The notes beneath the pieces were generated by a model. It was not told where the DNA came from. It saw only the letters and a program-made list of their open reading frames with translations, and searched no databases. From the IMG/VR virus record IMGVR_UViG_3300027896_001521, positions 1 to 31,651 of that record: 31,651 nucleotides of DNA. One strand, given 5' to 3'. The DNA comes from a virus. Positions 1,850-31,651 of the stretch are shown here, one piece after another; position 1 is the stretch's first letter; every line of letters starts with the position of its first letter. The translations under genes were made by a program, and so were the position numbers.

Positions 1850-1865
1850 AAGGAGAACTGAAAAC

Positions 1866-2599: not shown

Positions 2600-2611
2600 A
2601 GGGATACTAAA

Positions 2612-3241
2612 ATGGTTGCCACTGTTAGCGACATTAAACTTGGGCGTAAGGCTCGCTTGTATATCAACACTGCCGCAACTTACGCCTCTCCCGCGTGGTT
2701 AGCGGTAAATATCCTCCAGAATGGAACGCTTACGCAAACCATTCAGGATGTAGCATTTGATTCCCGCGCCTCCAAGCATACCAAGCATGACCAAGCGCAG
2801 ATTACAACGGGATACAGTTTCAATGTCCCAGCCACAACCGTCATGGATAGCAATTTTATCAAACTGCAACGGTCATTCTTAGGCGGGCTGAAACTCGATA
2901 TGGCGATAATGGACAATACAATTACAACCGTGTACGCTCGCGGCGTCCGTGGTTATTTCCTTGTTCATAAATTCGACCGTTCCGAAGATATAAACGGCCA
3001 TGTGAATTATCAGGTTGAAATCAAGCCGGCCTATGATGCAACCTACGATCTGATTGATTACACGGTGCTCCCGAAGGCGATTACGTCCGGCTCCGCGATG
3101 ATTGCCGGGGCGTCTGCATACTGGGATTCAACCAGCTTGATAGTAACCTCAACTGTGGGAACTAACACATCTCTCGGTAAGGTTATTACGGCTGTCGCCG
3201 ATGGAGCTACAACTGTAACGGTTGATATGTCCGCAGATTAG
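2612..3241 (+). CDS. Major tail protein (tail tube-like)
   Basis: This 209-residue protein has the look of a siphovirus tail-tube subunit. The N-terminus reads as a strand-rich segment with Gly-Arg-Lys-Ala and Trp-Leu-Ala-Val elements, then a Thr/Gln-rich stretch and an Arg-Ala-Ser motif that resembles the loop in tail-tube proteins. A Tyr/Asp-rich sandwich follows, then a Ser/Thr/Ala-rich C-terminal extension. In related phages this gene precedes the tail assembly chaperones. Here seven glycan-related genes stand between them. The ribosome-binding site is AAGGGA just before ATG 2612. Confidence 0.6.
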   Translation: MVATVSDIKLGRKARLYINTAATYASPAWLAVNILQNGTLTQTIQDVAFDSRASKHTKHDQAQITTGYSFNVPATTVMDSNFIKLQRSFLGGLKLDMAIMDNTITTVYARGVRGYFLVHKFDRSEDINGHVNYQVEIKPAYDATYDLIDYTVLPKAITSGSAMIAGASAYWDSTSLIVTSTVGTNTSLGKVITAVADGATTVTVDMSAD

Positions 3242-3258
3242 CTGTAACATAAACCGGA

Positions 3259-3286
3259 GGGCGGAAAGGCCGTCCGCACTCCGCCC
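3259..3286 (+). repeat. GC-rich hairpin between tail tube and deacetylase genes
   Basis: GGGCGG at 3259-3264 can pair with CCGCCC at 3281-3286. An alternative hairpin pairs GCGGA 3261-3265 with TCCGC 3273-3277, with loop AAGGCCG. No T-run follows, so it is not a standard terminator. It sits exactly at the left border of the glycan cassette, just before the ribosome-binding site at 3293-3298. It may tune mRNA stability or translation of the cassette. Confidence 0.5.
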
Positions 3287-3302
3287 GCGCACAGGAGAAC
3301 TC

Positions 3303-3935
3303 ATGCCGTCCAATAAAATAATCACATTATCTTTTGACGATGGTACAAACGCTGATAGAGGCGTTATGGAACGCATACGGGCGGTAAAAGGTACGGCAAC
3401 TTTCTATCTTTGCTCCCATTGGATTTCAGAGGCGATATATCCCGGCGTGTTTTGGCCGGAAATATCAAAACTGTATGATGGATTTGAAGTTGGCGGCCAT
3501 ACACAAACACACTGGAAGTTTTGCAAGATAAAAGAAGACCCCGCCGAAATCGCCGCCGGAAAAGAGGAAGTTGAAGCAATTATTAAGAAGCCGCTGAAAT
3601 GCTTTGCATATCCCTATGGGTATGTACACGATAAGGACGCTGTAAGAGCGGCGGGGTTTGAATTTGCCCGAACCGTAAAACAAACTTTTGATATACGGGC
3701 GGATGCTGGCGATCCTTACGAGCAGCCGACATCGTCTACACTCAATATCAATTTTGCAACGAATATAATCCAGACATTCTTTGAACGTGAACAGCCTATA
3801 CACTTGCTGGGGCATTCTTGGCAATATTTGGTAGCGGGGTATAATACGTTGGATGTTCTTTTGAAACGTATGGAAGGAAGCGGATATACATATCTTACTA
3901 ATTACGAATTTTTTAAGGAGACGTGCCGCCCATGA
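3303..3935 (+). CDS. Polysaccharide deacetylase, NodB/CE4 family
   Basis: The 210-residue protein is predicted to remove N- or O-acetyl groups from a sugar polymer using a divalent metal. CE4 motifs are visible: LSFDDG with the base and metal Asp at 12-13, the metal pair HTQTH at 66-70, an AYPYG segment at 102-106 in the position of the RxxPY motif (the Arg is absent), and LLGHS with the late catalytic-type His at 171. ATG 3303 was chosen because AGGAGA (3293-3298) precedes it; an in-frame start 81 bases upstream would overlap the tail gene. It ends in an ATGA overlap with a glycosyltransferase, which points to glycan modification. A peptidoglycan deacetylase is the alternative. Confidence 0.85.
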   Translation: MPSNKIITLSFDDGTNADRGVMERIRAVKGTATFYLCSHWISEAIYPGVFWPEISKLYDGFEVGGHTQTHWKFCKIKEDPAEIAAGKEEVEAIIKKPLKCFAYPYGYVHDKDAVRAAGFEFARTVKQTFDIRADAGDPYEQPTSSTLNINFATNIIQTFFEREQPIHLLGHSWQYLVAGYNTLDVLLKRMEGSGYTYLTNYEFFKETCRP

Positions 3936-4507
3936 TTCCGGAGTTATCTATCTGCATCGGCATATTCAACCGCTGGGAGATATTCCAGAAGGGCTACTCT
4001 GCGTTGGCGGATTCTATTCTTGCCGTGGGGATAGGCTTGGAATTGGTTATTGCAGATTTTACTATCGGCGGTTGCCCTGCATGGATAGATGATGAATGCG
4101 GGGAATCATTTGAAATTGTCGTTTGTAACAATTCCGGGAAGAAATTCACACGTGGAGGGGCGCGAAATGCTGCGGCGATTACTGCAAAGGCTGATAATCT
4201 TTTTTTCATGGATGCGGATATGATTCTTATTCCTGCTGTTTTAAGGCGGGGATTGGAAGTTATAAAAGACGGCAAGGCGTTCTTTCCATATTATGACCGC
4301 ATTACTCCCGATGGATTGTCAACCGAAATTGGCATTGGAACGGGAAACGTATTCTGTTCAAAAGCGGCTTATGAATCCGCTGGACGGTTTCCTGAAATTG
4401 ACGGCTGGGGAAAAGAAGATACTTTGTTTTCTCATTGGTTTAAAGAACGCGGCTTAATGGTAAGAGAGAAGTTTCCGGGGTTCTTGCATCAATATCACAA
4501 AGGATAA
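3932..4507 (+). CDS. GT2 / galactosyltransferase-like glycosyltransferase
   Basis: The 191-residue protein shows a GT-A fold pattern: a short N-terminal strand with a GIFNR-like nucleotide-binding segment (residues 10-14), RGGARN (74-79), the metal-binding DAD at 94-96, and GWGKED at 158-163, the hallmark of the galactosyltransferase C-terminal (Glyco_transf_7C) motif. It should transfer a hexose or hexosamine from a nucleotide sugar. ATG 3932 forms an ATGA overlap with the deacetylase stop and lies 11 bases after AAGGAG; the in-frame GTG at 3923 is only 2 bases from it and is less likely. No membrane segment is present. Donor and acceptor are unknown. Confidence 0.8.
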   Translation: MIPELSICIGIFNRWEIFQKGYSALADSILAVGIGLELVIADFTIGGCPAWIDDECGESFEIVVCNNSGKKFTRGGARNAAAITAKADNLFFMDADMILIPAVLRRGLEVIKDGKAFFPYYDRITPDGLSTEIGIGTGNVFCSKAAYESAGRFPEIDGWGKEDTLFSHWFKERGLMVREKFPGFLHQYHKG

Positions 4508-4513
4508 CATATC

Positions 4514-5077
4514 ATGGGAGATGGAGTTTTAAGCGATAGTAAACTTGCAGAGGCGATGGGATACATCGAGGGCACGGCTGGCGACCTTGCTGAGGTAGGG
4601 GTTTATACTGGAAATTTGTTTAGACGCCTTTGCCGATACGCCGAACAGCGGGAATGTATAGCTTACGCCTATGATTCTTTTGAAGGCTTTGCCGCTCCGG
4701 GGGCATTGGATGACGCCCAGCAATATCCGGCGGGTAGTATGAGTTGTAGTATAGATGAATTTACAAAACTGCTTTCTAGTGCTTCTATATCACATAGATA
4801 TTATGAATTATGCAAGGGCTTCATTCCTGCTTGCTTTTCGCCTTACGATCCTCATTTCGCTTTTATATATATTGACATTGACCACTATCAGCCGACAAAG
4901 GACGCGATTCTATGGGCTTTGAATCATTTGAAATTCGGCGGCGTTCTTGGATTTGATGACGTTAAATTTGGATGGAATCGAGAGGCGGCGGGTGCAATCA
5001 ATGAATTCCTTGCCATTACACCGCATGAAGTTTTGATTCCAGAGGAAAACTGGCAACTGTTTATAAGGCTGAAATAA
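4514..5077 (+). CDS. TylF/macrocin-O-methyltransferase-like SAM methyltransferase
   Basis: The 187-residue protein carries class I methyltransferase features: AEVGVYTGN (residues 26-34) as the SAM-binding loop, YDSFEGF (53-59) typical of the TylF family, and YIDIDHYQP with the metal-type Asp pair at 121-123, followed by a GGVLGFDD strand. TylF-type enzymes methylate sugar hydroxyls, which fits the flanking glycosyltransferases. It is a little shorter than stand-alone TylF proteins. AAAGGA at 4499-4504 supports ATG 4514. Its stop overlaps the next start as TAATG. A sugar O-methyltransferase for a phage-made or host glycan is the best reading. Confidence 0.8.
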   Translation: MGDGVLSDSKLAEAMGYIEGTAGDLAEVGVYTGNLFRRLCRYAEQRECIAYAYDSFEGFAAPGALDDAQQYPAGSMSCSIDEFTKLLSSASISHRYYELCKGFIPACFSPYDPHFAFIYIDIDHYQPTKDAILWALNHLKFGGVLGFDDVKFGWNREAAGAINEFLAITPHEVLIPEENWQLFIRLK

Positions 5078-5622
5078 TGCCGATGGATGCGTATGCCTCT
5101 CATATTCCCATTCTTGCCGGCGTTGCTTCGGCAGTTAAGGGGAATATATTGGAACTGGGTGCGGGATTGTATTCAACTCCCTTGCTCCATGCTCTTTCCG
5201 GCGAAGAAAGAAAAATAGTCAGTTTGGATGATACGTCTTATTGGATTCAGAAATTTAATAGTTATCATACTCCATATCATACCTTCCATTGTGAAAACAA
5301 TCTGCGAGAATGCACTTTACTTACTTGTATTTATTGGCGGCTTGCCTTTGTAGATTGCACGGACGCTATACGCGGCGTATGCGTCAACAAATTAAAACGT
5401 CATGCTGATATAATTATGATTCACGATTCGCAGTGTATGGAGACGTATAATTATGGAATCATAATTAATGAATTTAAAGACAGGATAGATTTTTCATTTC
5501 CAGAGTTGAAAGTCAATCCAGAAGATTTAATTCCGTGGACGAGTCTATTGTCTGATATGGTGGACTTGGAGCGGTTTATGACGCTTGCTCCCAATGCGAA
5601 GAGAGTAAAACATGGGATTTGA
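5077..5622 (+). CDS. SAM-methyltransferase-like protein, copy 1 of tandem pair
   Basis: The 181-residue protein has an N-terminal YASHIPIL segment followed by ILELGAG (residues 24-30) and YSTPLLH, a glycine-rich SAM-binding loop of class I methyltransferases. A later IIMIHDS segment may be the acidic strand near the active site, and IPWTS near residue 153-157 is shared with the next gene. Those shared blocks show that the two genes arose by duplication. Substrate is unknown; the neighbours suggest a sugar. Overlap with the upstream gene is one base (TAATG). Confidence 0.65.
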   Translation: MPMDAYASHIPILAGVASAVKGNILELGAGLYSTPLLHALSGEERKIVSLDDTSYWIQKFNSYHTPYHTFHCENNLRECTLLTCIYWRLAFVDCTDAIRGVCVNKLKRHADIIMIHDSQCMETYNYGIIINEFKDRIDFSFPELKVNPEDLIPWTSLLSDMVDLERFMTLAPNAKRVKHGI

Positions 5623-6151
5623 TTTATATGCCTCTCACTTGCCGATACTTGTCGCCGTAGCGTCAAAAGCTAATGGCAACTTTCTGGAAATCGGAGCGGG
5701 CTATTACTCTACTCCGGTACTACATGCCATTGCCGCTGTGCGCGGGATTGAATTGACGACCGTTGAAACAAACCAACTTTATTATTATATGTTTGCGGAT
5801 TTAATAACCAATACGCATGGTTTTATTGTAGTAAAGCAGTCTACTGATTACAAAATAGAAGATTACGACCGCTGGGGAATGGCGTTTATTGATAACGACG
5901 ACTGCCCAAGAGCAGACCTGATACTGAAATTAAGAGATAAATGCCGCTACATAGTGGCACACGATACCGAAAACCTAAAGCCAAATTACGGTTTCGACCG
6001 GCTGGATGGAGCTTTCCAGTATCGCATTGATTTTAAATTCAAACGTTATCAGATAGAGCCTGAAATTATCATCCCGTGGACATCTGTATTTTCTGATACG
6101 GAGAATCTCGATTGGATTAGAAAGGCATTTCCCGAAAATGGAGAACAATAA
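5612..6151 (+). CDS. SAM-methyltransferase-like protein, copy 2 of tandem pair
   Basis: The 179-residue protein matches the upstream gene along its length: YASHLPIL near residue 6-13, FLEIGAG at 24-30, YSTPVLHA just after, a histidine-aspartate (AHDTE) strand, and IPWTS plus SDTENL near the end. It overlaps its paralogue by 11 bases and the following glycosyltransferase by 14 bases. Sequence between the shared blocks differs strongly, so the copies have diverged and may act on different positions or substrates. Function as an O- or N-methyltransferase is inferred from the SAM loop. Confidence 0.65.
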   Translation: MGFDLYASHLPILVAVASKANGNFLEIGAGYYSTPVLHAIAAVRGIELTTVETNQLYYYMFADLITNTHGFIVVKQSTDYKIEDYDRWGMAFIDNDDCPRADLILKLRDKCRYIVAHDTENLKPNYGFDRLDGAFQYRIDFKFKRYQIEPEIIIPWTSVFSDTENLDWIRKAFPENGEQ

Positions 6152-7787
6152 AATCCCCAACATTCTTAATTTCGTTTGGATTGGAGGCGAATTCCCGCCG
6201 TGGGTTAAACACATTACAGATGAATTCCGCAAACTCAATCCGGAGTTTGAAATAAAATTCCATAATGAAACTATACTGTCCGACGAATATAAAGAGCGGT
6301 TTCAATTCATTCCCGCTATGGATTCACGCTCGGACTTGCTGCGGCTCTCGGCGTTGAAGAAATTCGGCGGCTGGTATTTTGATTGCGATTTCTGGCCGAT
6401 ACGACCTATCAGAGACATTGTTTCGGCGTATGCGCTCTATGACGGCAAAGGTTTTATAACCAAGCAGCATTGGCATAAGAATCAAAGCCTGATATATGCC
6501 AACGGCGTACTTGCTATGCCGCCACAATCATTAGCTCCTGATATGTGGAGGCTCATTGATGATTGGATTGGCCGCATTCCGAAAGAGAAGCCGAACCGCT
6601 GCGACTATGGTCCCCAGCTATTCACAAAACTCATAGACAAATACCGCGATTTATTCATCGAGGCGGAATGGCCTTATTTCTACCCGCTCCCGAAGGCAAA
6701 GGCGCGGGGATTATATAGTATGATTCAAAACGGCACAGCCGATCCTGCAAGATGCCGGTATCTTACTCCGGAATTAAAATGTCAGGTTCCATTTGTATTC
6801 CATTTGTGGATGGGCGGAAAGACTGATTTGTCTTTTGCCAACAAAGACGCTAAACACCGCGTTATATATACGGCTCCGGACTATACGCATCAAGGACGAA
6901 TCAAGCCCGCGATAGTTGATGGGCTGGCGGCACTCGGTTATAATGTCCAGATAGAACAAGATTATCAAGTTGGAGATGACGCTGATATAGTTTGGAACTG
7001 GAACGGAATGAAAGGATTATCTGGGCAGATTCAGGACCGCGCTAAAGAATCAGGCTTGATTACATTCTATTTGGAGAATGGCTTTTTTGACCGCGCAAAC
7101 TATTATCAGATTGACCACAAAGGAATTTTGCATCACGCCTCATGGATGGAAAGTCTTAAAACACCCGCGCCGGCTGGGGGTAAACAGCGTTTTCTTAATG
7201 TTTGGCGCGAACCGCTAGTACCCCAGCGCATTACTGGCGACTACATATTGATTTTAGGTCAAGTTGTCGGGGACTCCCAGCTATACGGGTGCGAGATGGG
7301 CACGGCGGTTGACCTATGCTCTTTAGTACGCCAGCATCTCCCCGCTGATATTCCGCTATATTTCCGTCCACACCCTAAACACGACATCCGAGATACGGAG
7401 CGGGCGCGGCGATACGTTGAAATCTTGAAGAGTAAAGTCATACACGGCAATACTGCATTGCTTGAATCTCCGGATTTGAAGGCGGCAATTTCAAAGGCTC
7501 GCTTTGTTGTTACTATAAATTCTAATGCTGGCAATGAAGCTCTCGCTTGGGGGTGTCCCGTCCTAGCAATGGGAGACAGTGTATATACTCGCGGCGGGGT
7601 TGCCTTGCGAACCACAAAGGATACTTTCGCAGTTGATTTAAAGCGGATGCTTGACGGATGGAAGCCAGAACAAGCAGCGGTTGAAAATTATTTGCATTGG
7701 TTAGCGGCGCGGCAATGGAACTTGGATGAGATACGCAGCGGAGAAGCGTTAAAACCTCTAATTGAGGCGGCATACAAAACACCATGA
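6138..7787 (+). CDS. Two-domain glycosyltransferase: GT32-type DXD domain + KpsC/KpsS-like domain
   Basis: The 549-residue protein is the largest in the cassette. Residues 6-110 look like the GT32 sugar-binding DXD family: IPNILNFVWIGG near the start, SRSDLLRLSAL (63-73), then GGWYFDCDF with the metal-binding DCD at 82-84. After a linker near residue 230 the second half resembles capsule polysaccharide transferases of the KpsC/KpsS (Kdo) type: a GQVVGDSQL segment, RPHP at 410-413, and an INSNAGNEAL...GCPVLAMG block around 460-479 that matches the nucleotide-sugar binding end of that family. It overlaps both neighbours. It could add two successive sugars, the second perhaps Kdo-like. This arrangement is unusual for a phage. 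Confidence 0.75.
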   Translation: MENNKIPNILNFVWIGGEFPPWVKHITDEFRKLNPEFEIKFHNETILSDEYKERFQFIPAMDSRSDLLRLSALKKFGGWYFDCDFWPIRPIRDIVSAYALYDGKGFITKQHWHKNQSLIYANGVLAMPPQSLAPDMWRLIDDWIGRIPKEKPNRCDYGPQLFTKLIDKYRDLFIEAEWPYFYPLPKAKARGLYSMIQNGTADPARCRYLTPELKCQVPFVFHLWMGGKTDLSFANKDAKHRVIYTAPDYTHQGRIKPAIVDGLAALGYNVQIEQDYQVGDDADIVWNWNGMKGLSGQIQDRAKESGLITFYLENGFFDRANYYQIDHKGILHHASWMESLKTPAPAGGKQRFLNVWREPLVPQRITGDYILILGQVVGDSQLYGCEMGTAVDLCSLVRQHLPADIPLYFRPHPKHDIRDTERARRYVEILKSKVIHGNTALLESPDLKAAISKARFVVTINSNAGNEALAWGCPVLAMGDSVYTRGGVALRTTKDTFAVDLKRMLDGWKPEQAAVENYLHWLAARQWNLDEIRSGEALKPLIEAAYKTP

Positions 7788-8440
7788 ACCTATTAAATAT
7801 TTATGACATATTCCCCGGATACACCGCGTTTATACTCGGCACGGGACGGAGCCTTGACGCGCTATCCGTTTCCAATCTATACAAGAAAGAGGCGGTTACT
7901 ATTGCTATAAACCGCGCTATTGGTATCGCAGAATGCGCCGTTGACTCTAACTCTCTTTTCTGGTTAGTACAAGATGACTGGAAAAGCAATAGAACTCCGG
8001 GGCTATGGGATGAATGGAAATCCAACATGGATAGGGGAGAATTTTACGGATTGTTTCCATCCGTGTTTCTTTCACGCGAACAAGGAAAGATTGACGCTCC
8101 GAAAGGAGATAATATAATAACATGGGAGCGGGATGATTCCGGAACGTATCGGACGCATTCCAAATTAAAGACAGCACAACTTAATAAGCTATTCACCTTC
8201 TGCGGCTCTGCGGCTCCGGCTATACACGCCGCTTGGATTATGGGATGCAATGAAATCCGGCTGGTAGGTTGCGATGGAGGCGATTCAGTGGCGCACTGTT
8301 TAAGCCAATGGTATGATTTATCAAAGTCGGTGACGGCAAATCATACACTATCTCTGGACATTGCGCGGAATTTATGCCATAAATTAAAGTTAAAGTTGTT
8401 TGAATTAGATAACATAGGAGAATGGAGGGAGAACAAATGA
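7784..8440 (+). CDS. DUF115/GT42-like protein (possible glycosyltransferase)
   Basis: The 218-residue protein begins with a strand followed by GTGRSL (residues 19-24) and later an IAINRAIG segment, the arrangement seen at the N-terminus of DUF115/MptE-like proteins and GT42 sialyltransferases. A CGSAAPAIHAAWIMG helix and a strand ending LVGCDGG complete the pattern of that Rossmann-like fold. It is coupled by ATGA on both sides, closing the glycan cassette. A nucleotide-sugar transferase role is inferred; the family also includes non-transferase enzymes. Metal or catalytic residues cannot be fixed by eye. Confidence 0.55.
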   Translation: MNLLNIYDIFPGYTAFILGTGRSLDALSVSNLYKKEAVTIAINRAIGIAECAVDSNSLFWLVQDDWKSNRTPGLWDEWKSNMDRGEFYGLFPSVFLSREQGKIDAPKGDNIITWERDDSGTYRTHSKLKTAQLNKLFTFCGSAAPAIHAAWIMGCNEIRLVGCDGGDSVAHCLSQWYDLSKSVTANHTLSLDIARNLCHKLKLKLFELDNIGEWRENK

Positions 8441-8850
8441 GCAAGTTCAAAGATAACAAAGGCCGTGAATGGAATCTATCTCTTACTGTGGGATTGGCTA
8501 AAGACATAAAAGAAAAGCTCGGAGTTGATTTAGTCAATATCAATAATGAGATAATCGAAAAAATGTGCGTCAATCCATATCTCCACGTGGAAGTATTGTG
8601 GATGTTTTGCAAGGGGCAAAATGATATATCGGCGGAGGAATTTGGTTACTCGCTGGGCGGGGATTCGATAGACGATGCAACCGCCGCAATGATTGAGGCA
8701 ATAGTGGATTTTTTCCCGCGAAGCCGCCGGGGAGCGGCAAAGATAATGGTGCAGCGGATGAAGGAAATGACGAGCAACCAGACGGAGGAACTGGAACGCC
8801 GGATACGAGCGATTCCGGACGCCGAAATAAACAAGATAACTGGCGGATGA
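8437..8850 (+). CDS. Tail assembly chaperone (gpG-like)
   Basis: The 137-residue protein starts with a FKDNKGREWNL segment followed by a valine/lysine helix and LGVDL, the pattern of small siphovirus tail chaperones encoded just before the tape measure gene. GGAGG at 8424-8428 lies 8 bases before ATG 8437, which also forms ATGA with the previous stop; the ATG at 8422 has no spacing to a ribosome-binding site. The product should bind the tape measure protein during tail assembly. It ends in an ATGA overlap with the second chaperone gene. No tail-tube domain is present. Confidence 0.65.
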   Translation: MSKFKDNKGREWNLSLTVGLAKDIKEKLGVDLVNINNEIIEKMCVNPYLHVEVLWMFCKGQNDISAEEFGYSLGGDSIDDATAAMIEAIVDFFPRSRRGAAKIMVQRMKEMTSNQTEELERRIRAIPDAEINKITGG

Positions 8851-9146
8851 TTTGGCAAGCCGCCGGTGCGCTGGGAATAGACCCACGCCCGTTTAGTTTA
8901 CGTGAATTGGATTTGATGCTCTTTGGCAAAGGTAGATTTTACTGGAGGCCTTTTGCGGAGGCAATGGCTTTGACCGTGAACATGAATTGCCGAAATGCAA
9001 ATGCAACATGGAAAACCTTTTCAATGTATCTGGAAGATTACGAAATGACGGACAATGGCGGGGGAATTGAAATAGCCCCGGAGAATATAGATTTGTTGGA
9101 AATGGCTTGGGTAGAAAAACCAGTGCGCCCGATACCGGCGCACTAA
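8847..9146 (+). CDS. Second tail assembly chaperone (gpT-like)
   Basis: This 99-residue protein contains AGALGIDPRPFSLREL near the start, very like the short second chaperone of many tailed phages, which has a conserved DP..(F/Y)(S/T)LREL helix. It lies in the -1 frame relative to the first chaperone, and that frame stays open for at least 90 bases upstream of its ATG, as in G/GT frameshift systems. I see no slippery heptamer near the end of the upstream gene, so ATGA-coupled reinitiation at 8847 is the more likely mode of expression. Confidence 0.65.
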   Translation: MIWQAAGALGIDPRPFSLRELDLMLFGKGRFYWRPFAEAMALTVNMNCRNANATWKTFSMYLEDYEMTDNGGGIEIAPENIDLLEMAWVEKPVRPIPAH

Positions 9147-9152
9147 TAAAGC

Positions 9153-9217
9153 GCGGGCAGGCCAGCCCGCTATATAGGCCGCCGTCCAGTAGGCCGTTCT
9201 CCCCTGCTGGCGGCGGC
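9153..9217 (+). repeat. Two GC-rich inverted repeats between chaperone and gp10-like genes
   Basis: The 92-base gap contains GCGGGC (9153-9158) pairing with GCCCGC (9165-9170), and then a longer stem with a single bulged T: 9178-9189 pairs with 9207-9217. The loop of the second is 17 bases. Neither is followed by a T-run, so read-through into the gp10-like gene is expected. They may act as RNA processing or mRNA-stability sites. A similar GC hairpin stands at the left border of the glycan cassette. Confidence 0.55.
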
Positions 9218-9238
9218 TACCTTTGAAAGAAAACAACA

Positions 9239-9913
9239 ATGGGATTATGGAAGCAGATGATAGCTGAAGGATACAAAGACAACGGCAAAGGAGCTTCCGT
9301 TTCTGGTTTTATTATGTTTAATGATGATGCAATATTAAGCTATGTTGATGCAGCAACGCGAGATGGATTATCCGCCGCTGGTGTAATGGTTAGACGTACT
9401 GTGATGCAGTCTATTCGATTTAAACCGGAATATGGAAGGGCGTCAACTCGCGGAATGCCTCCGTTCACTCATACGGATTCGCCATATCATAGTTTAAGAA
9501 AAGCAATTCAATTTGCATATTATCCGGCAGAAAAAATGGTACTGGTTGGAGCTACATTAACCGGAGATATAAAGATTGGAAAGATACACGAATTTGGCGA
9601 CTCAATAAATAGTAAACACATCCGAGAATTTCACGTCGGCGATTATGGAGCTATTCGACATTATTATATTTACGGTCAGCGCATGGGATTATATTATTCC
9701 AATATCGAAGGGCGGGCTTCGCAACAGATTGTTTGGCATATACGGTTAAAAACGCAGGCTCTAGTAGATAACGCCAATGAGACCTTGAAAATGTTTGTTA
9801 AGCCGGATAAGCCGCGTAACTACCCGAAACGCGCTTTTATGAAACCGGCATTAGATGAAAACATACCAAAGATTGCGCCTTTGTTTCGGAAGGCGATAAG
9901 GAGCGCGACATGA
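9239..9913 (+). CDS. HK97 gp10-like / tail completion protein (putative)
   Basis: The 224-residue protein ends in a PKRAFMKPALDENIPKI-type segment, close to the C-terminal arginine/proline-rich helix of HK97 gp10-like and tail-completion proteins. An alpha/beta middle with a VGATLTGD strand is compatible with that fold. It is placed between tail chaperones and tape measure rather than before the tail tube, where gp10-like genes usually lie. GAAAGAAAACAACA upstream is a weak ribosome-binding site. It overlaps the tape measure gene by ATGA. Confidence 0.5.
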   Translation: MGLWKQMIAEGYKDNGKGASVSGFIMFNDDAILSYVDAATRDGLSAAGVMVRRTVMQSIRFKPEYGRASTRGMPPFTHTDSPYHSLRKAIQFAYYPAEKMVLVGATLTGDIKIGKIHEFGDSINSKHIREFHVGDYGAIRHYYIYGQRMGLYYSNIEGRASQQIVWHIRLKTQALVDNANETLKMFVKPDKPRNYPKRAFMKPALDENIPKIAPLFRKAIRSAT

Positions 9914-11172
9914 GCACAGGATCAATACCAGCGGGCGAGGCATACATAAAGATAACAACTGAAACCGGCGGACTTAATACGGGGCTTGCAGAGTCTCAAA
10001 CTAAACTAACTGGCTTCGGGAGGGGATTGGAACAGGTTTTACGGCACATTCCCGGATTAGAGGGAGCGGGGGGAGCATTAAGCCGCGCTATGCAGGGAGC
10101 GGTAAATGGTTCTATCAGTTATGGCGTAGCATTAGGCGCGGCGGCGGCAACCGCTTGGGGTGTCGTGCAACTCGTTGATAAATTAGTAATGTATCATGCC
10201 AAACTTAACAGCGAAGCAGAAAAGTATTATAAACTTGGAGAAAAACAACGTACAGATGAAGAAAAGCATTTGGCGCGACTTGCAGAAATGGAAAGACTCG
10301 GGCGGCTTACTAAGCAAGAAACATTGGAAGCCAGACGATTATTGTTGGCAATGGAAAAGGAAACCGGAGATAAATCAGGCATTGGACTTACTGCCGATAA
10401 TAGATTGGTAGGAGTTGCAGAATTCCGCAGGAAACTTATTGAAAAAGAATATCAAGAAGAAAACGTGCAGGCGCAAAGGGCTTTGAATCAAGCGAGAGAA
10501 AATGCGGCAAAATTACAAAATGAAATAAATACCCATCCGGTGGGAGAATGGTTTAAAACTGATAAATATAAAGAACTGATAAAAAAGCAGGACGAATATT
10601 ATACTAAAGCTATCGAATATCAGCATACATTAGATTTTCTTGCCGCTGATTATTCAAAAAAGTTATCTGAAATATCACGTGAAGAACAGAAAAAATTTGA
10701 TGCACAGGGAAAAGCAATAAGAAAGTTTCAAGAAGAATGGGGAAAGATGGATGATGAAGACGCGGCAATTGCAAAAAGAAAGTCTGACGAAATAGTCAGA
10801 AAACAAAAAGAAGAAGAAGATAAAAAACAAAGACACTCCGATGAATTAAATAAATGGTTATTCAGACAAGACGAAGAAGTACAAAAACAAGAAACAACGC
10901 GAATTAATGATATTAATACGCGAAACGTGCAAGATAAGAACAGTAAATTAAAAAATCTCACAGATGAACTAGATCGCCTTCAAGCTCATCAATCAATTGG
11001 TATGGCAATGGGTACTTTTTCCGGAACGATAGCTTCTCAATTGGGGCGGGCTGGGGGTATGTCCGAGACCCTGCAAACTTTAAAAACAATATCGGCGGAT
11101 ATTGCGGCAATAAAACAAATAGAAGATTCGGGTTGGCAGGAAGCTAAAGATTCCTCTACAGTTAGCAATTAG
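9910..11172 (+). CDS. Tape measure protein, short
   Basis: The 420-residue protein starts with an AYIKITTETGGL segment and a hydrophobic helix-turn pattern typical of tape measure N-termini, includes a hydrophobic stretch at about residues 72-98 (Ala/Val/Gly-rich), and then a long Lys/Glu/Gln-rich coiled coil from about 100 to 370. At the usual rise of about 0.15 nm per residue it would give a tail near 63 nm, shorter than most siphoviruses. The setting (two chaperones upstream, tail-tip genes downstream) fits. It may instead belong to a short-tailed relative with a tape-measure-like internal protein. Confidence 0.7.
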   Translation: MSTGSIPAGEAYIKITTETGGLNTGLAESQTKLTGFGRGLEQVLRHIPGLEGAGGALSRAMQGAVNGSISYGVALGAAAATAWGVVQLVDKLVMYHAKLNSEAEKYYKLGEKQRTDEEKHLARLAEMERLGRLTKQETLEARRLLLAMEKETGDKSGIGLTADNRLVGVAEFRRKLIEKEYQEENVQAQRALNQARENAAKLQNEINTHPVGEWFKTDKYKELIKKQDEYYTKAIEYQHTLDFLAADYSKKLSEISREEQKKFDAQGKAIRKFQEEWGKMDDEDAAIAKRKSDEIVRKQKEEEDKKQRHSDELNKWLFRQDEEVQKQETTRINDINTRNVQDKNSKLKNLTDELDRLQAHQSIGMAMGTFSGTIASQLGRAGGMSETLQTLKTISADIAAIKQIEDSGWQEAKDSSTVSN

Positions 11173-11184
11173 GACACCATTAAC

Positions 11185-12075
11185 ATGGTAGACTCTACAA
11201 CTTTCCTTGAAGGCTTTAAGTCCCGAAGGATAACACTTTCCGCCTCCGGCTCTTTTGAAGTAACGGGCACATTGCGCGGTATGCCGGATGATACCGATGA
11301 CGCCGCGATTTTAATAGCTGCGATGGGACTAATAGCCACAACGCATTCTTTGCCCACAACTTACTACGATGCTTACAATGCGCCGATAATGGAAAACTAT
11401 TATCGAAACCAAATTGACATCCAACGGGCGGGTCAGGGGGTATGGAATTGTGTCGCCACCTATAAGCGGCGCGGCAAGATAACCATAGCCCCTGGCGTCT
11501 CTATTGGCGGGCTGTCCATCGGAGAACAAACGCAACGAATAAAACAATCCATCTTGACCTATGCCTCCTATAATAGTACAGCCTATGGTTCATCGGGCGG
11601 CGCGACTGATTTTAAAAACCTGATAAATGTAACGCACGAAGGACAATGCGAAGGCTGCGACTGGGGCGGCGGAGCGGCGGCAGTCCGAACAGTAAGGCAG
11701 TGTTTCGAATCCTCCGACATAAATGACGCCTATCTTGCTACTATTTGTTCAATTCAAAATACTATGAACTCCGGTACATATTTGGGATTCGGAGCTTACA
11801 CGTTGCGCTTTCTAGGCTGTGATTTAAATGAGCTTTCAACGCAACAATGGGAAGGAATATTTCGCTTTGGATTTTCTCCACATGAGACGGTAATTACAAT
11901 TGGAGATATGACAAACATCGAAAAGGACGGTTGGGATTACTTGTGGGTTTATTATGAACCGCGAAAAGATGGATCGTCAGAGATGATACGGCAGGTTCCT
12001 ATTTCGGCTTATGTTGAACAGATTTACTATCCCAATGATTTTTCAGACTTGAAATTGAATCCGAACACCTATTAA
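11185..12075 (+). CDS. Tail protein (distal tail/tip candidate)
   Basis: The 296-residue protein follows the tape measure gene, the normal place for a distal-tail or tip protein. The N-terminus (FLEGFKSRRITLS) and strand-rich body, with a WNCVATYKR strand near residue 90, resemble beta-sandwich tail proteins. A central Gly/Ala/Asp-rich stretch around residue 158 looks like a loop. No catalytic motif is visible. GAcACCATTAAC upstream is a weak ribosome-binding site. Function is inferred from position. Confidence 0.5.
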   Translation: MVDSTTFLEGFKSRRITLSASGSFEVTGTLRGMPDDTDDAAILIAAMGLIATTHSLPTTYYDAYNAPIMENYYRNQIDIQRAGQGVWNCVATYKRRGKITIAPGVSIGGLSIGEQTQRIKQSILTYASYNSTAYGSSGGATDFKNLINVTHEGQCEGCDWGGGAAAVRTVRQCFESSDINDAYLATICSIQNTMNSGTYLGFGAYTLRFLGCDLNELSTQQWEGIFRFGFSPHETVITIGDMTNIEKDGWDYLWVYYEPRKDGSSEMIRQVPISAYVEQIYYPNDFSDLKLNPNTY

Positions 12076-12086
12076 GGCAAAAAGCA

Positions 12087-13055
12087 ATGACAAATACCAA
12101 TCCACAGCCCGGACAACCTATCCGCCTATCCGCTGAATGGGTACGGCGGATGAATGCTGGTATCGGTAACATCGCGGGGCAACCGCCTCCACAGGGACAC
12201 GTTTCATCCAATGTTATTTTAGTACAGAATGCTGGCGATCCTTTGCCAGCGCGAAGCATAGTCCAGATTGATACTATGGGAATTTATTACGACGATAATG
12301 CTAATTCATTTATTTATAATCCATTGATGCAACTTTGTGTACCCGTCCAAGATGACGAAAATCTCTTTTTAGTGGGAGTAACACAGGATTATATCAAGCA
12401 AGGCGGCTGCGGCAAGGTGCTTGTTAGCGGACTGGCGGTTTGCCAAATTGATATAAAAAGCACTTTGGATTTATTCGCCCGTGTTTCCGATAGCACCACA
12501 TCTAGTTTGGAATCCGCGCCGTGGGGAACGTGTCGAATAGCCTATGCGCCCGCTGGCTATACTGGTATGCAGTGGTGCATTGTTGAACTAAATATACCGC
12601 CTGTGCTTCCGGCTATCTGGCAAGCTACCGCTGACCAATCCGGTGATACAGTTACGGCAAAGCCAATAAATCAAGCGGGAACTTTGCGGAGCGGCGATCC
12701 TTACTCTTTAAAAGTCATGGGGGATGCCTATAAAATCCGCGAGTATGACGAACTGGAAGTTTGTCAAATGTCCGACGGAAACATAGCTGTATATGCGGCT
12801 TACGGCAACCATAAAACCACGTATTTTTTACCGGTGGAAACGGATGAAAGCTCGGAAACATCTACTTGGGATATTAATGACCAACCTACGGACAAACAAG
12901 GGGTAACCTTGACTATGGCAACCCGCTGTTTCTGGGAAGGCGTTGGGCATGACCTCGTATTCTTTACCCGCGATTTTGTTTTTGATTCCAAAGGTGCGTT
13001 AATTTCCATATCTTCCGAAACATGTCACAGCTTCGCGCCGACGGGGAACTGTTAA
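12087..13055 (+). CDS. Tail or receptor-binding structural protein
   Basis: The 322-residue protein begins with a Pro-rich leader and RLSAEWVRRMNAG, a short helix that begins many tail-fibre-like proteins. The rest is beta-rich with repeated Tyr/Asp strands and five to six scattered Cys. It lies directly after the presumptive tail-tip gene and ends at a TAATG overlap with a Cys-rich gene. It may be a baseplate or receptor-binding component. No enzymatic domain was recognised. Confidence 0.45.
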   Translation: MTNTNPQPGQPIRLSAEWVRRMNAGIGNIAGQPPPQGHVSSNVILVQNAGDPLPARSIVQIDTMGIYYDDNANSFIYNPLMQLCVPVQDDENLFLVGVTQDYIKQGGCGKVLVSGLAVCQIDIKSTLDLFARVSDSTTSSLESAPWGTCRIAYAPAGYTGMQWCIVELNIPPVLPAIWQATADQSGDTVTAKPINQAGTLRSGDPYSLKVMGDAYKIREYDELEVCQMSDGNIAVYAAYGNHKTTYFLPVETDESSETSTWDINDQPTDKQGVTLTMATRCFWEGVGHDLVFFTRDFVFDSKGALISISSETCHSFAPTGNC

Positions 13056-13435
13056 TGGTTAATACTCTAAAATATAAAAGCATCTATTTAATGGCGACGG
13101 ATACGCCGTCAAAACACCTTGTTACGTCTTGCCCCGGCTATCCCAACGTGATTATGGGGTGCGCTGGTGTCGGCTCCCACCATCTGGCGGAATGCGCCCT
13201 TATTGGTCAGCTATGCCCACCCGCGCCGCCGGTGTATGGTACGTGCTGGTGTTGGACATGCCCCGGTATGCCTACGTCTGGAATTGATATTTATTATTGT
13301 AGTTCCGGCATTCAGGGCTTCCACCATGTGGATTATGGAGTGGACGATTCATGGCATACGACGATTTATAACAATTGTTTCATGCCGCCTTGCCCGAATA
13401 TGTGGCTTGATACCGTCTGGTATAATGTCCCATGA
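13055..13435 (+). CDS. Cysteine-rich protein, 126 aa
   Basis: The protein has ten Cys and several His and Trp spread over its second half, including a TCWCWTC cluster and a CPPAPP turn. It has no signal peptide. Such density suggests metal binding or disulphide stabilisation, as in some small appendage-tip proteins. ATG 13055 was chosen for the TAATG overlap with the upstream stop and for GGGGA at 13043-13047; an in-frame ATG at 13022 would overlap the previous gene by 34 bases. I do not recognise the family. Confidence 0.55.
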   Translation: MVNTLKYKSIYLMATDTPSKHLVTSCPGYPNVIMGCAGVGSHHLAECALIGQLCPPAPPVYGTCWCWTCPGMPTSGIDIYYCSSGIQGFHHVDYGVDDSWHTTIYNNCFMPPCPNMWLDTVWYNVP

Positions 13436-13665
13436 GCGAGCGAACCGCCAAAATCCGCGAGTTTATCCGTCTCCACGGTCGGGACGCGCTGGATGATTCC
13501 GTTTTTCTTTCCGCCTTCTTGGAAGACCGGCCAATGCCGCCACTGGCGACTACTTGGGCGTGCACCGCCTGCAACGCGCTGAATCCGCTATCAATTAATA
13601 TATGTGGCGTTTGCGGTCTCCGTCGCTATGGCGGCTGTGGGGGCTGCGGCGATGGGCTGAAATAG
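13432..13665 (+). CDS. RanBP2-type zinc-finger protein
   Basis: The 77-residue protein has a textbook RanBP2/NZF finger: W42, C44, C47, N51, C58 and C61 with spacings W-x-C-x2-C-x3-N-x6-C-x2-C. A second CGGCG motif follows near residues 69-72. The N-terminal half is helical and acidic. RanBP2 fingers bind ubiquitin, RNA or proteins in eukaryotes and are found in small bacterial and phage proteins of unclear role. It is the last gene of the late operon and is coupled to the Cys-rich gene by ATGA. Confidence 0.75.
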   Translation: MSERTAKIREFIRLHGRDALDDSVFLSAFLEDRPMPPLATTWACTACNALNPLSINICGVCGLRRYGGCGGCGDGLK

Positions 13666-26007: not shown

Positions 26008-26211
26008 ATGAACGACCGCATAAAATGGACTATCCGTATTTTTGATAACGCCTTCCATCGTTATTGCTGGACGGCAAGAATTGACGGTCAAAAATTCGAG
26101 GTTAGGGGTACAGTAGATTTTGAAACGGATAAAGCCGCGCAGACGGCGGCGGAGCAAACACTTGAATTCATTGGATGGAATAAAGACCCTGATAAGAAAG
26201 AGAAACCATGA
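26008..26211 (+). CDS. Hypothetical protein, 67 aa
   Basis: The protein is beta-rich in its first half (WTIRIFDNAF and WTARIDG strands) and helical after residue 40. GAAGGC precedes the start. No family recognised. It overlaps the DUF1937 gene by ATGA. Confidence 0.5.
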   Translation: MNDRIKWTIRIFDNAFHRYCWTARIDGQKFEVRGTVDFETDKAAQTAAEQTLEFIGWNKDPDKKEKP

Positions 26212-26543
26212 TTTACGTCTGCACACTTTATAGCCATAAGTCAAAACGTATCCGCCAAAAAAGATATGAATTTGCTTGCCGTATCGTTGCGGATTTAATT
26301 AAGAATGGTTCGCCAGCGTTTTCTCCGATTGCTTATTCTCATGTGCTCGCAATAGATTACGATATGGGCACAACATGGGCGGACTGGGAGTATTTCGATT
26401 TTGATATGCTACGATTTGCTTCTTGTGTTCTTGTCGTTAAAAGTCCGGGCTGGAAAAAATCCAAAGGAATTAAAGCTGAAATTGCAAAGGCAAGAGAGCT
26501 AAAGATTCCTGTCATTTTCAGAAAGTGGCCGAAAAATGGGTAA
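26208..26543 (+). CDS. DUF1937-like protein (nucleoside 2-deoxyribosyltransferase fold)
   Basis: The 111-residue protein starts with a strand and YSHKSK, then an R.EFACRIVADLIKNGSP helix-turn and SPIAYSH, and ends with VVKSPGWKKSKGIKAEIAKARELKIPV. This pattern matches DUF1937, related to nucleoside 2-deoxyribosyltransferases. Such proteins are common in phages and may act on nucleotides or cofactors; no activity is known. The start overlaps the previous stop. Confidence 0.65.
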   Translation: MIYVCTLYSHKSKRIRQKRYEFACRIVADLIKNGSPAFSPIAYSHVLAIDYDMGTTWADWEYFDFDMLRFASCVLVVKSPGWKKSKGIKAEIAKARELKIPVIFRKWPKNG

Positions 26544-28086: not shown

Positions 28087-28284
28087 ATGTATGACCAAAC
28101 TACCGCCGCGCCGAATGATTACACGGAACTTGGAACGTCCAGTGAAGCGTTAGGAGAAATGGGATTTGTGGATATGCTCGGAAAGTTCTTTAAGAATGAT
28201 ACCCAACCTACGGTAGAAACTAAGCATAGATATTTCGGCGACGTTCCAAAGTGGAGATTCAAGCGTCATGCAGATAAACTTTGA
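28057..28284 (+). CDS. Hypothetical protein with repeat N-terminus, 75 aa
   Basis: No good ribosome-binding site was found; starts at 28057, 28081 or 28087 are all possible, since the first two lie in the tandem repeats. The body is acidic in the middle and basic at the end. It overlaps the primase start by 17 bases. Function unknown. Confidence 0.45.
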   Translation: MKLPNKLPMKMYDQTTAAPNDYTELGTSSEALGEMGFVDMLGKFFKNDTQPTVETKHRYFGDVPKWRFKRHADKL

Positions 28285-30472
28285 TAATATACCACAGGAA
28301 TTGAAGAATCAAAAACGCTGGGTACTGTGGAAATATGAAATGCGCGGCGGAAAACAAACAAAGCCGCCATTTCAAGTATCCGGAGCTTTTGCAAGAAATA
28401 ACGATCCTGTCACATGGGATACTTTTGATTCAATTTTTAAAACCTATAATCAGGGTGGCTGGGAAGGAATAGGTTTTGAACTAGGCGGAGACTATCAAGG
28501 TATAGACCTAGACCATGTAAAAAAGGGTGGAAATATTTTTCCGTGGGCACAGGAATTAATAAGCAATTTAAAAAGCTATACCGAAACATCCCCCTCGGGT
28601 ACGGGTTATCATATTTTATTAAAAAACATGAATATAGATTTGAAAAAATGTAAAAAAGCTATGCCTAATGATTCGGGAATAGAAATTTATAAAGAAGCCC
28701 GATATTTAACCACAACAGGAATATTTGAATTTGATGATTGCAGGAATATTGTTGAAGCATCACCTTTTTTAGAATCATTTTGTAAAAGAGAAGGATTATT
28801 GCATATTCCACAAGAAGAAACGATTTTAGATAGAGCGCGGGTTGCTAGAAATGGACTGGAATTTATAGCTCTATTCGACCGTGGGGATTTGACAGCGTAT
28901 AGCGGCGACCATTCTGCCGCAGACTTAGCCCTATGTAATCACTTGGCCTTCTGGACAGGTGCTAATTCGGAAAAAATGGATTTGCTTTTCAGACAATCCG
29001 CTTTAATGCGTTCCAAGTGGGATGAGCGGCATAATAGCAACGGGAATACCTATGGACAAATGACCATAGATACGGCTGTGAAAAACTGTAATACAATAGT
29101 ACAAAATCCAAAGTTAGATAAAAAGAAGAAAGTACAGGATAATACCCCCAGCACTCTTTTAACAGATTTGGCTAATTCTCGATTATATGCAAAAACTTAT
29201 CGAGATAAAATATGCTATTGTAACAGTTTGGGATGGGTTATATGGAACGGCATTAAGTGGGAAAGAGACGAGGTTTCTTTGACCGAACACTATGCAAAAA
29301 AAATTGCTGATTCCATTTTAGAGGGAGCGCGAGACGTTGCCGATCCCGATATTAGAATGTCAAAATTAAAAGAGGCTATAAAAATACAGGCTAAAAACCG
29401 CATTATAAATATGGTAGACCTTGCACAAAGTGAAATGGCAATTTCGGGAGATGTTTTTGATACCCACATTCATTTATTAAATACTGAATCCTGCCTTGTG
29501 AATTTAAAAGACGGATCGACAATTTCTCATAATTCAGAACTGTATATTACGCAACAAACGGGGGCTGATTTTGCTATTGATGCCGTTTGTCCCAGGTGGG
29601 ATGAATTTCTAATGACTATTTTCGATAATAATTTATTAATGATAAAATTTGTACAACGTCTAACCGGCTATTGCGCTACGGGTTCAGTTATTGAAGAATG
29701 CCTACCGATTTTTTATGGTTCTGGTGCAAATGGAAAATCTACTTTTCTTAAAATCATAATGACGATTTTGGGAGACTATGCAGCCCCGGCTCCACAATCT
29801 CTATTGATAAAAAAAGAAAATACCTCCGAGCTTGAAATTTTCTCCCTTCGGGGAAAACGTATGGTAACGGCTTTTGAAAGCAAACGCGGAGCGGCGTTAA
29901 ATGAGGGACTTGTAAAATGGGTTACAGGGCGCGATAAACTAAAGGGGCGCACTCTTTATAAAGAATTTATTGACTTTGAGCCTACACATAAAATAATCCT
30001 GTGTACAAATCATAAACCCAGGGCGTCCGGCGATGATGATGCAATATGGCGACGTTTAAAATTGGTTTCATTTTTAAAGACAATACCTGAAGATCAGCGA
30101 AACCCCGAACTTGCTGACGAAATCCTATCAACTGAAAAATCAGGAATATTAAATTGGATTATAATAGGCGCGATGTCGTGGTATGAAAACCGCCTTCAAT
30201 ACCCCGATGAAATAAAAGAAGCTACAGCACAATATCGAATTGATAGTGATTCGTTTTTGCGGTTTTTGGATGAAAATACTGAGCCCCTTTGCGGTTTTAA
30301 TACCCGCGCTGGCGAATTGCGTATGGCTTACGAATCATGGTGTAAAGAAAACGGAGAATATATTGCAAATGTTCGCTTCTGTAATGAAATTTTAAGGCAA
30401 AAAGGATTCATTCAACATCGTGAAGAAACGGGCATGTTTTGGGAAAATCTTTCTTTGACAAAAAGGGAATAA
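28268..30472 (+). CDS. Primase-helicase: AEP-type primase + SF3 helicase
   Basis: The 734-residue protein has an N-terminal primase domain of the NrS-1/prim-pol type with the metal pair GIDLDHV (Asp80, Asp82) and a TSPSGTGYHI segment shared by such primases. The C-terminal half is an SF3/D5 helicase: Walker A GSGANGKST at 484-492, a conserved FESKRGAALNEG block, and ILCTNHKP...IWRRL with the sensor Asn and Arg finger. It should unwind and prime the phage origin. No DNA polymerase gene is in the window, so the prim-pol or a host enzyme may copy DNA. It overlaps the previous gene by 17 bases. Confidence 0.85.
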   Translation: MQINFDNIPQELKNQKRWVLWKYEMRGGKQTKPPFQVSGAFARNNDPVTWDTFDSIFKTYNQGGWEGIGFELGGDYQGIDLDHVKKGGNIFPWAQELISNLKSYTETSPSGTGYHILLKNMNIDLKKCKKAMPNDSGIEIYKEARYLTTTGIFEFDDCRNIVEASPFLESFCKREGLLHIPQEETILDRARVARNGLEFIALFDRGDLTAYSGDHSAADLALCNHLAFWTGANSEKMDLLFRQSALMRSKWDERHNSNGNTYGQMTIDTAVKNCNTIVQNPKLDKKKKVQDNTPSTLLTDLANSRLYAKTYRDKICYCNSLGWVIWNGIKWERDEVSLTEHYAKKIADSILEGARDVADPDIRMSKLKEAIKIQAKNRIINMVDLAQSEMAISGDVFDTHIHLLNTESCLVNLKDGSTISHNSELYITQQTGADFAIDAVCPRWDEFLMTIFDNNLLMIKFVQRLTGYCATGSVIEECLPIFYGSGANGKSTFLKIIMTILGDYAAPAPQSLLIKKENTSELEIFSLRGKRMVTAFESKRGAALNEGLVKWVTGRDKLKGRTLYKEFIDFEPTHKIILCTNHKPRASGDDDAIWRRLKLVSFLKTIPEDQRNPELADEILSTEKSGILNWIIIGAMSWYENRLQYPDEIKEATAQYRIDSDSFLRFLDENTEPLCGFNTRAGELRMAYESWCKENGEYIANVRFCNEILRQKGFIQHREETGMFWENLSLTKRE

Positions 30473-30476
30473 TCTC

Positions 30477-30806
30477 ATGGAAAATAGCGATAAACCAGAC
30501 CATAAACAGGTTGAAGATGACTATTCATGGCATACTTCTGGTAACTGGAAAACAAAAACAGACGCCGCCACTGCATTTTTAAAGATTATTCACCCTTTGG
30601 ATTTATTTTTTCCATCCAAAAAACAACACGGGCCGCTGGCTAGTTTGTTCGCTCAACAGCACTTTGGGACGGCAACATTCAATCAAAACACCGCTTTTTG
30701 GGAATTGAAATTTATGTGCGGAGAAACGCCTATTTTGCGCATTTCTTCCCACAATGGAATAAAAGTTGGAAACCAAAATACAGGTAAAGGCTTGGGCGCA
30801 CGATAG
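30477..30806 (+). CDS. Hypothetical protein, 109 aa
   Basis: Starts 4 bases after the primase-helicase stop. The protein has an acidic N-terminus, a LDLFFPSKK turn, and a Phe/Asn-rich core. No recognised family. Position suggests a replication accessory role, which is inference. Confidence 0.5.
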   Translation: MENSDKPDHKQVEDDYSWHTSGNWKTKTDAATAFLKIIHPLDLFFPSKKQHGPLASLFAQQHFGTATFNQNTAFWELKFMCGETPILRISSHNGIKVGNQNTGKGLGAR

Positions 30807-30817
30807 GTTATGACTTA

Positions 30818-30846
30818 TTGTGTGTTCATGTAGGATGTAGCATAAT
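30818..30846 (+). promoter_or_regulatory. Promoter-like pair with repeat in spacer
   Basis: TTGTGT (30818-30823) and CATAAT (30841-30846) are 17 bases apart; the second is five of six for -10, the first three of six for -35. The spacer is filled by the direct repeat ATGTAGGATGTAG (30828-30840), one arm of the inverted repeat below. This fits an operator inside a promoter. Confidence 0.4.
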
Positions 30847-30929
30847 GTATGTATTTCCATAAACTTTTTACTTTCGATTTCTCATGAGGAAACTTTTGGG
30901 AATTAGCTACATATACCTACATCCTACAT
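30828..30929. repeat. ATGTAG/CTACAT hexamer cluster (origin or operator candidate)
   Basis: ATGTAGGATGTAG (30828-30840) and its exact reverse complement (30917-30929) are separated by A/T-rich sequence. Hexamers ATGTAG/CTACAT occur at 30828, 30835, 30907, 30917 and 30924. The cluster lies right after the replication genes and before two regulatory-type genes, matching either an iteron-type origin or a repressor operator. Confidence 0.5.
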
Positions 30930-30950
30930 TGCTTTTAAGGTATGAAGAAA

Positions 30951-31118
30951 ATGAAAGACTTTCCCGTTAAAATAGTGCGCCCATCGGAACGCCCAAAGTT
31001 TAATGACCGCGCGCGTTTCTGTAAAGAGCCTGATTGTGGCAAACGTCTCAGCCGCTACAATCTTGGCAAACGCTGCTTTACTTGCCAAATCAAATGGAGC
31101 ATACTGCACAATGATTAA
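30951..31118 (+). CDS. Zinc-finger protein, 55 aa
   Basis: ATG 30951 lies 10 bases after AAGG (30937-30940); an in-frame ATG at 30942 is only 1 base from it. The protein has FCKEPDCGKRLSRYNLGKRCFTC, a C-x4-C...C-x2-C zinc motif of a kind seen in many small phage and bacterial proteins, followed by a Trp-containing helix. It overlaps the next gene by 8 bases. It may bind DNA with it. Confidence 0.6.
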   Translation: MKDFPVKIVRPSERPKFNDRARFCKEPDCGKRLSRYNLGKRCFTCQIKWSILHND

Positions 31119-31617
31119 AAAGAAAAAAGCACAAACGTCCAAGCGATACGGGCGCAGGCTGGACTTAACCCAGATAACTCAAAAACAAGCAGATGAACTT
31201 CAAACACTGTTACGAACGAGCAACACAATGATTGAATCAATCCACGCTTACCGCATCAAGTGGCTTGCCATACACGATTGGCTATCACAGCGCATCAAGC
31301 AGCGGTGGACAAACTACCTGTATGGTTGCCGCCTTAGAACAGAGCAAGCATACTGCCGACTATTCGGCGTATCACGATGGACGGTCAAACGCGCCTTCTC
31401 GGCACTGGAAGGCGAGGGACTGGTAGTCGGTGGACGTGGCCATCGGCTATACGTCACATGGCGACCCATAGGCTGGGATAGAGTCTGGATTGAAGACCAA
31501 GTGCAGCAAGCCACAGAACCGACGCTATCGCTTGCCATTGAACGCAAAGTCAAAACCGATACCGGATACGGCTTTCCGCGCTGCGTTCAACGCAGGGCGT
31601 CTAGCGGTCAGATTTAA
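31111..31617 (+). CDS. GntR-like winged-helix protein, 168 aa
   Basis: After a basic N-terminus, residues 76-115 carry a GntR-type winged helix: LRTEQAYCRLFGVSRWTVKRAFSALEGEGLV and a Gly-rich wing. The N-terminal 70 residues are helical. It may be the regulator acting on the hexamer repeats just upstream, or a replication initiator. The start at 31111 overlaps the zinc-finger stop; a longer in-frame start at 31003 lies inside that gene. Base composition looks more GC-rich than the preceding replication genes. Confidence 0.65.
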   Translation: MIKKKKAQTSKRYGRRLDLTQITQKQADELQTLLRTSNTMIESIHAYRIKWLAIHDWLSQRIKQRWTNYLYGCRLRTEQAYCRLFGVSRWTVKRAFSALEGEGLVVGGRGHRLYVTWRPIGWDRVWIEDQVQQATEPTLSLAIERKVKTDTGYGFPRCVQRRASSGQI

Positions 31618-31623
31618 GGTACT

Positions 31624-31650
31624 ACCGGCGGTTTGTTAAGCCGCTCCGGT
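31624..31650 (+). terminator. Hairpin at the right edge
   Basis: ACCG (31624-31627)/CGGT (31647-31650) and GCGGTTT (31628-31634)/AAGCCGC (31638-31644, one G-U pair) can form a compact hairpin just after the winged-helix gene. Whether a T-run follows is outside the window. Confidence 0.4.
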
Positions 31651-31651
31651 C

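Follow-up and report, generated by a model that had tools for sequence, protein, structure and literature searches.

A paired iteron array 3′ to a D5-type primase-helicase gene as the probable replication origin of an uncultivated phage

Replication origins have been annotated by the depositors in Lactobacillus phage A2 (rep_origin, 32208-32717), Streptococcus phage Sfi21 (origin of replication, 34487-34784) and Lactobacillus phage phi adh (rep_origin, 13084-13469). Supporting experiments exist for all three. According to the available part of PMC7581432, the Rep protein of SaPIs, which in SaPI5 comprises primase and helicase domains, recognizes origin iterons downstream of its own gene by means of its C-terminal domain, and the isolated C-terminal domain of the SCCmec protein Cch2 binds such a site. 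The plasmid pRN1 requires for its replication a stem-loop of ~100 nt located 3′ to the primase-helicase gene, which also works when moved, and the same type of origin has been proposed for phage BIP-1 (available part of PMC4234260). A further source, PMC7145576, concerns another initiator family in the part available.

Here, we describe an element of 102 nt in the complete record of an uncultivated phage (31,651 bases, the whole stretch that was analyzed and hereafter the window). We put the probability at roughly 84% that this element is the replication origin of the phage, served by its own D5-type primase-helicase with the iteron arrays as sites, and thus an origin of a known kind (P4, SaPI, pRN1, A2) that is new in this phage. 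The features of the locus, with coordinates and strand, are:

28268-30472, + strand: D5-type primase-helicase, 734 aa (NrS-1-like HBD, D5_N, DUF5906), the proposed initiator
30083-30469, + strand: C-terminal domain of the primase-helicase, aa 606-734, as modelled the putative iteron binder
30477-30806, + strand: ORF of 109 aa, function not assigned, between the primase-helicase gene and the element
30828-30929, no strand: whole element, two inverted iteron arrays and an A/T-rich core, the candidate replication origin
30828-30840, + strand: left arm, ATGTAGGATGTAG, holding a pair of ATGTAG iterons at an interval of 7 nt; a looser copy, ATGTAT, lies beyond the arm at 30845
30841-30916, no strand: core between the perfect 13-nt arms, 71% A+T, the candidate melting region
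30878-30886, + strand: TTTCTCATG in mid-core, where several relatives have TCTCTATA (a tentative equivalence, drawn by eye)
30917-30929, − strand: right arm, CTACATCCTACAT, with two inverted ATGTAG iterons; a third lies at 30907-30912
30942-31118, + strand: cysteine-rich ORF of 58 aa (zinc-ribbon-like by eye), starting 12 nt past the element
31111-31617, + strand: ORF of 168 aa with a sub-threshold GntR-like stretch, the winged-helix protein of an earlier note on this DNA and the rival binder

The anatomy of the element agrees with the earlier note, which had counted five ATGTAG/CTACAT hexamers, a perfect 13-base inverted repeat and an A/T-rich setting. The hexamers lie at 30828 and 30835 on the + strand and at 30907, 30917 and 30924 on the − strand; the two arms are perfect 13-nt complements spaced 89 nt centre to centre, and the A+T content of the core compares with 55.6% for the window. 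Imperfect symmetry extends beyond the perfect arms (40-nt arms, 75% complementary), and the half-site TGTAGNATGT occurs once per arm and nowhere else in the window. A search for the hexamer elsewhere, which the earlier note had proposed as a check, showed that the hexamer by itself is not rare in the window (14 found against 9.3 expected), but five within 102 nt were never reproduced in 200 dinucleotide shuffles of the window, where the largest cluster was 3, and the clustering is therefore not attributable to chance. The inverted repeat alone is only mildly unusual and weak evidence, since a perfect inverted pair of 13 nt spanning no more than 160 nt arose in 11 of the 200 shuffles; it is made secure by its recurrence in other phages. 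No terminator-like site was found within the element by a promoter/terminator scan, and 30400-31651 matched no Rfam family at E values up to 1, so the element matches neither a terminator nor a known structured RNA. The literature searched did not contain TGTAGGATGTAG.

The proposed initiator matches PF08706 (E 1.8e-23) and phrog_1829 (E 7.4e-161) and carries an NrS-1-like helicase-binding domain (HBD), and by sequence its primase half is related to primases of solved structure, among them 7ola, a 797-aa DNA primase that we take to be the SaPI5 protein. The element starts 355 nt past the primase-helicase stop codon, which upholds its placement after this gene in the earlier note, but with one ORF, that of 109 aa, intervening. 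The window has no close DNA relatives in the phage collection. Almost none of 17 ORFs scanned in the late region (137-13435) matched PHROG families (three weak matches), and the replication genes do match such families, which we read as a sign that the phage is structurally unusual or very divergent. An ORF at 26208-26543 is related to DUF1937 / nucleoside 2-deoxyribosyltransferase.

A strict two-arm pattern matched one other phage contig (L005), in which the element is the sole sequence shared with the window across the 10.2 kb of L005 compared. Successively looser patterns retrieved 6, 7 and then 27 loci from viral_contigs. At 17 of the 27, the arms remain symmetric well past the pattern, at 21 to 30 of 36 positions; the other 10, among which we placed L155 with its partial symmetry, are chance-like (8 to 20 of 36), and the low symmetry score of L159 arises in part because this locus starts at the end of its stretch. 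A reversed control pattern of the same composition gave 11 loci, all with 11 to 18 of 36 and none with extended symmetry. The 17 symmetric elements are 96 to 110 nt in total length and span several lineages (e.g., L063/L066/L067, L162/L163/L170/L172/L175 and L160/L174), with ATGTAGGATGTAGGATAA (L005) and GTGTAGGATGTAGCAT (L160) as typical half-sites. Each record holds a single element, the two hits in G002 being overlapping registers of one. BLAST searches with these short elements returned weak, chance-like matches only. A long, nearly pure A/T stretch resembling a DNA-unwinding region adjoins the element in L064 (5710-5776) and in L065 (7917-7973).

The conserved neighbour of the element is the helicase gene upstream of it. 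A primase of the D5_N or PHROG 1829 family was detected in 8 of the 17 element records, including all 7 of at least 30 kb and 1 of the 10 shorter ones, a length cut that was chosen after the data had been seen; among chance-like records the helicase was present in 1 of 10 overall and in 1 of 7 of at least 30 kb. Fisher's test gives 0.002 for this association, or 0.013 with near-identical records collapsed. The nine element records in which no helicase was detected, all shorter than 30 kb, count against an origin. In four of six lineages, the window included, the element lies within 500 nt 3′ to the helicase gene, which would occur by chance with a probability of ~2.5e-7, given a 500-nt target per genome and lineages that were defined after the fact. 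The juxtaposition can be very close: the helicase stop codon falls inside the first iteron in G002, G005 and G006, and the element begins about 15-30 nt past the stop in G013 and G020. In G003, G016 and G019, 8-12 kb separate the element from the helicase gene, which again counts against an origin. At two loci, the stop codon is itself part of the first iteron (ATG-TAG at L063 1397-1402 and GTG-TAG at L076 8338-8343), and positions 1-2226 of L065 hold a helicase-like ORF, seemingly with intein-like inserts when viewed by eye.

The same arrangement was surveyed from the side of the helicase, in 77 loci drawn from 80 of 360 primase relatives; L142 and L145 (truncated within the match or where it ends) and L146 (same record as L004) were left out. 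Within 64.6 kb of DNA spanning −60 to +800 around the helicase stop codons, we counted 47 inverted repeats that measured 75-130 bp and had arms of 13 nt (one mismatch allowed), as compared with 56 in 891 kb elsewhere. With lineages defined at below 75% identity, 11 of 26 have such a repeat within −60 to +500 of the stop, against 0.65 in shuffles of the same DNA and 2 of 24 in a control region 1.5 kb further on; the remaining 15 of 26 lack one at the threshold used. Arm sequences vary by lineage (TTACTTTTGTTAC, CGGGTGGTGACGG, AACGATGGAACGA and GTGTAGAAGTGTAG). The word CTCTATA, in place of which the window carries TTTCTCATG, occurs in 8 of 34 cores, with 0.5 expected, a count that overstates independence because related pairs are included (L063/L066 and several Bacillus phages).

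A structure model was built for the C-terminal 129 residues of the primase-helicase together with 27 relatives. The model has a mean pLDDT of 85.8, rising to 93-98 over aa 61-120 of the fragment, and shows the order of elements of a winged helix, with the last 75 residues resembling the origin-binding domain of P4. This domain (1ka8) is the third-best match in VIA-align (Z 8.5, 2.4 Å, 74 residues, 20% identity), behind two DNA-binding domains of the RFX type (Z 10.6 and 10.2), and an RFX is also the best Foldseek match (E 0.0038). The C-terminal domain is thus predicted to be a winged helix of the origin-binding type, a shared fold that does not in itself show function. The C-terminal domains of helicases accompanied by TGTAG iterons resembled one another no more closely than those of other helicases (permutation p 0.58), which speaks against an easy version of iteron binding by this domain.

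From the observed anatomy, recurrence, link to the helicase gene and predicted C-terminal fold, and by analogy with P4 alpha, SaPI Rep, Cch2 and pRN1 ORF904, initiation may be pictured as follows. The ATGTAG iterons form two inverted arrays 89 nt apart, centre to centre, to which the C-terminal winged helix of the D5/SF3 primase-helicase would bind. One helicase hexamer would assemble on each side, as the relatives suggest, and the two would melt the A/T-rich core between the arrays. On the strands exposed in this way, the primase half would then start synthesis, which would probably run in both directions if the relatives are a guide. A turn in GC skew, which the earlier note had put forward as a check, proved neutral: at the element, the skew of the window drops from +0.10 to roughly −0.01, and there is no change of sign at the element in G002 or G003. 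We regard GC skew as uninformative here and do not count it as support for an origin.

The origin may instead act as an extruded stem-loop, either a cruciform or a hairpin in single-stranded DNA, as has been proposed for pRN1, a variant of the origin that we consider unlikely. The length and position of the element equal those of the ~100-nt pRN1 stem-loop, and the fold of the element strand is more favorable than those of 199 out of 200 shuffled sequences (z −2.7). The direct repeats within the arms, present in 15 of 23 elements against 2.9 expected, argue against pairing; 8 of the 23 had been retrieved by requiring a repeat in the search pattern, and 8 of the 15 were not selected by a repeat-bearing pattern. 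In addition, L063 and L066 retain the same mispaired positions inside their arms, as judged by eye. The in-arm direct repeats favor double-stranded iterons, with stem-loop pairing as the less likely form.

The earlier note had left open whether the element is an origin or an operator. As an operator, the repeats would be bound by the 168-aa winged-helix protein or another regulator that controls the small downstream genes, with the left arm in a promoter spacer. The element does end 12 nt ahead of the small 58-aa ORF that precedes the 168-aa ORF; in the group of L160, L169, L173 and L065 an early operon follows it, as does an HTH gene in L169 and L065. The promoter-like pair that the earlier note had drawn around the left arm is present as TTGTGT-17-CATAAT at 30818-30846, but it is weak, with 8 of 12 consensus bases in a hand count against a consensus that may not be that of the host, and fell below the scan threshold of 9 and so was not listed. 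Nor is the gene downstream conserved, being a 70-aa ORF in G002, a 94-aa ORF in G013, a 91-aa ORF that is MazG-like by eye in G020 and a scaffold-like ORF in L064, in contrast to the conserved helicase upstream. The poor promoter and the lack of a conserved downstream gene weaken the case for an operator, which we consider improbable, and the specific proposal of an operator for the downstream winged-helix protein found no support. We also rank the 168-aa protein low as a binder: neither viral_contigs nor the phage collection (E up to 1) yielded relatives of it, and its single-sequence model is poor (mean pLDDT 56.9). Operator and origin may both be true, since an origin can also be a promoter. 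The origin half of the earlier proposal is well supported by the related phages, the adjacency to D5 helicase genes, the annotated origins and the predicted C-terminal fold, and a pure operator is unlikely, as is chance.

Chance, or the functionless spread of a simple heptad repeat, is very improbable as an explanation, even with the inverted pairs in 11 of 200 shuffles and 57 genome_contigs stretches matched by a looser pattern (mostly heptad arrays, from Peribacteria and Bacteroidota), because those chromosomal matches are multicopy, whereas the phage elements are single in each record, 96-110 nt long and tied to one gene family. By eye, the 57 stretches are mostly chromosomal arrays of the ATGTAGA type, which we set aside as not being phage elements. 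In L006-L062 (genome_contigs; e.g., L013 6238-6347 and L027 788-869), such heptads are interspersed in both orientations, and the arrays recur in many copies per genome in assemblies of Peribacteria bin-3506, 'bacterium Yes70-31', Parcubacteria, Aquirufa and Prevotella. They are possibly a repeat family of their own.

As an origin, the element can be set against the described systems one by one. In each of A2, Sfi21 and phi adh, the annotated origin starts where a primase gene homologous to that of the window ends (30.9% identity for A2 and 30.1% for phi adh, with Sfi21 weakly matched at 53.8 bits) and, like the element, contains inverted repeats around A/T-rich DNA. The phi adh repeats, GTGTAGGGTT, are close to the TGTAG class, whereas the iteron words of A2 and Sfi21 differ from that of the window; the three annotated regions are also longer (298-510 bp), contain further repeats and lie directly 3′ to the gene, whereas one ORF intervenes in the window. 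Phages phi105 and PSA, for which no origin is annotated, have the same architecture, and Wrath has a weak version of it. In SaPIs, too, the iterons come immediately after the helicase gene, and the primase half of the window protein matches 7ola; the host and the iteron word of SaPI and Cch2 are different (AAGTG in Cch2), and binding by Cch2 requires direct rather than inverted repeats. P4 alpha combines a C-terminal winged-helix origin-binding domain with an SF3-type helicase; the window protein shares the helicase type, and its predicted C-terminal fold matches the origin-binding domain. We found no counterpart in the window of crr, the second site of P4. The primase of P4 alpha is of the Toprim type, unlike that of the window, and the pRN1/BIP-1 gene encodes an archaeo-eukaryotic primase, an SF3 helicase and a winged helix (available part of PMC4234260). 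The window element has the size of the pRN1 stem-loop and a similar place, but pRN1 is described without iterons in that part of the source, where no sequence-specific binding was found for it.

We speculate, with somewhat less than even confidence, that a single origin design, located just 3′ to the initiator gene, is common to phages with D5/SF3 initiators, SaPIs and perhaps also plasmids of the pRN type. In this design, two inverted iteron arrays ~90-100 bp apart would flank a core that is A/T-rich and often contains a CTCTATA-like word. If so, the pRN1 stem-loop and the P4/SaPI iteron origins would be a single class, a pair of opposed helicase hexamers would dictate the spacing of the arms, and iterons of the TGTAG type would recur with helicases that are only 26-47% identical. 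For an uncultivated phage with few recognizable genes, the element provides a specific candidate start of replication, and the position rule, a two-armed repeat of ~100 bp just 3′ to a D5 helicase gene, could predict origins in many metagenomic phages. The result also draws together three types of origin that have been described separately.
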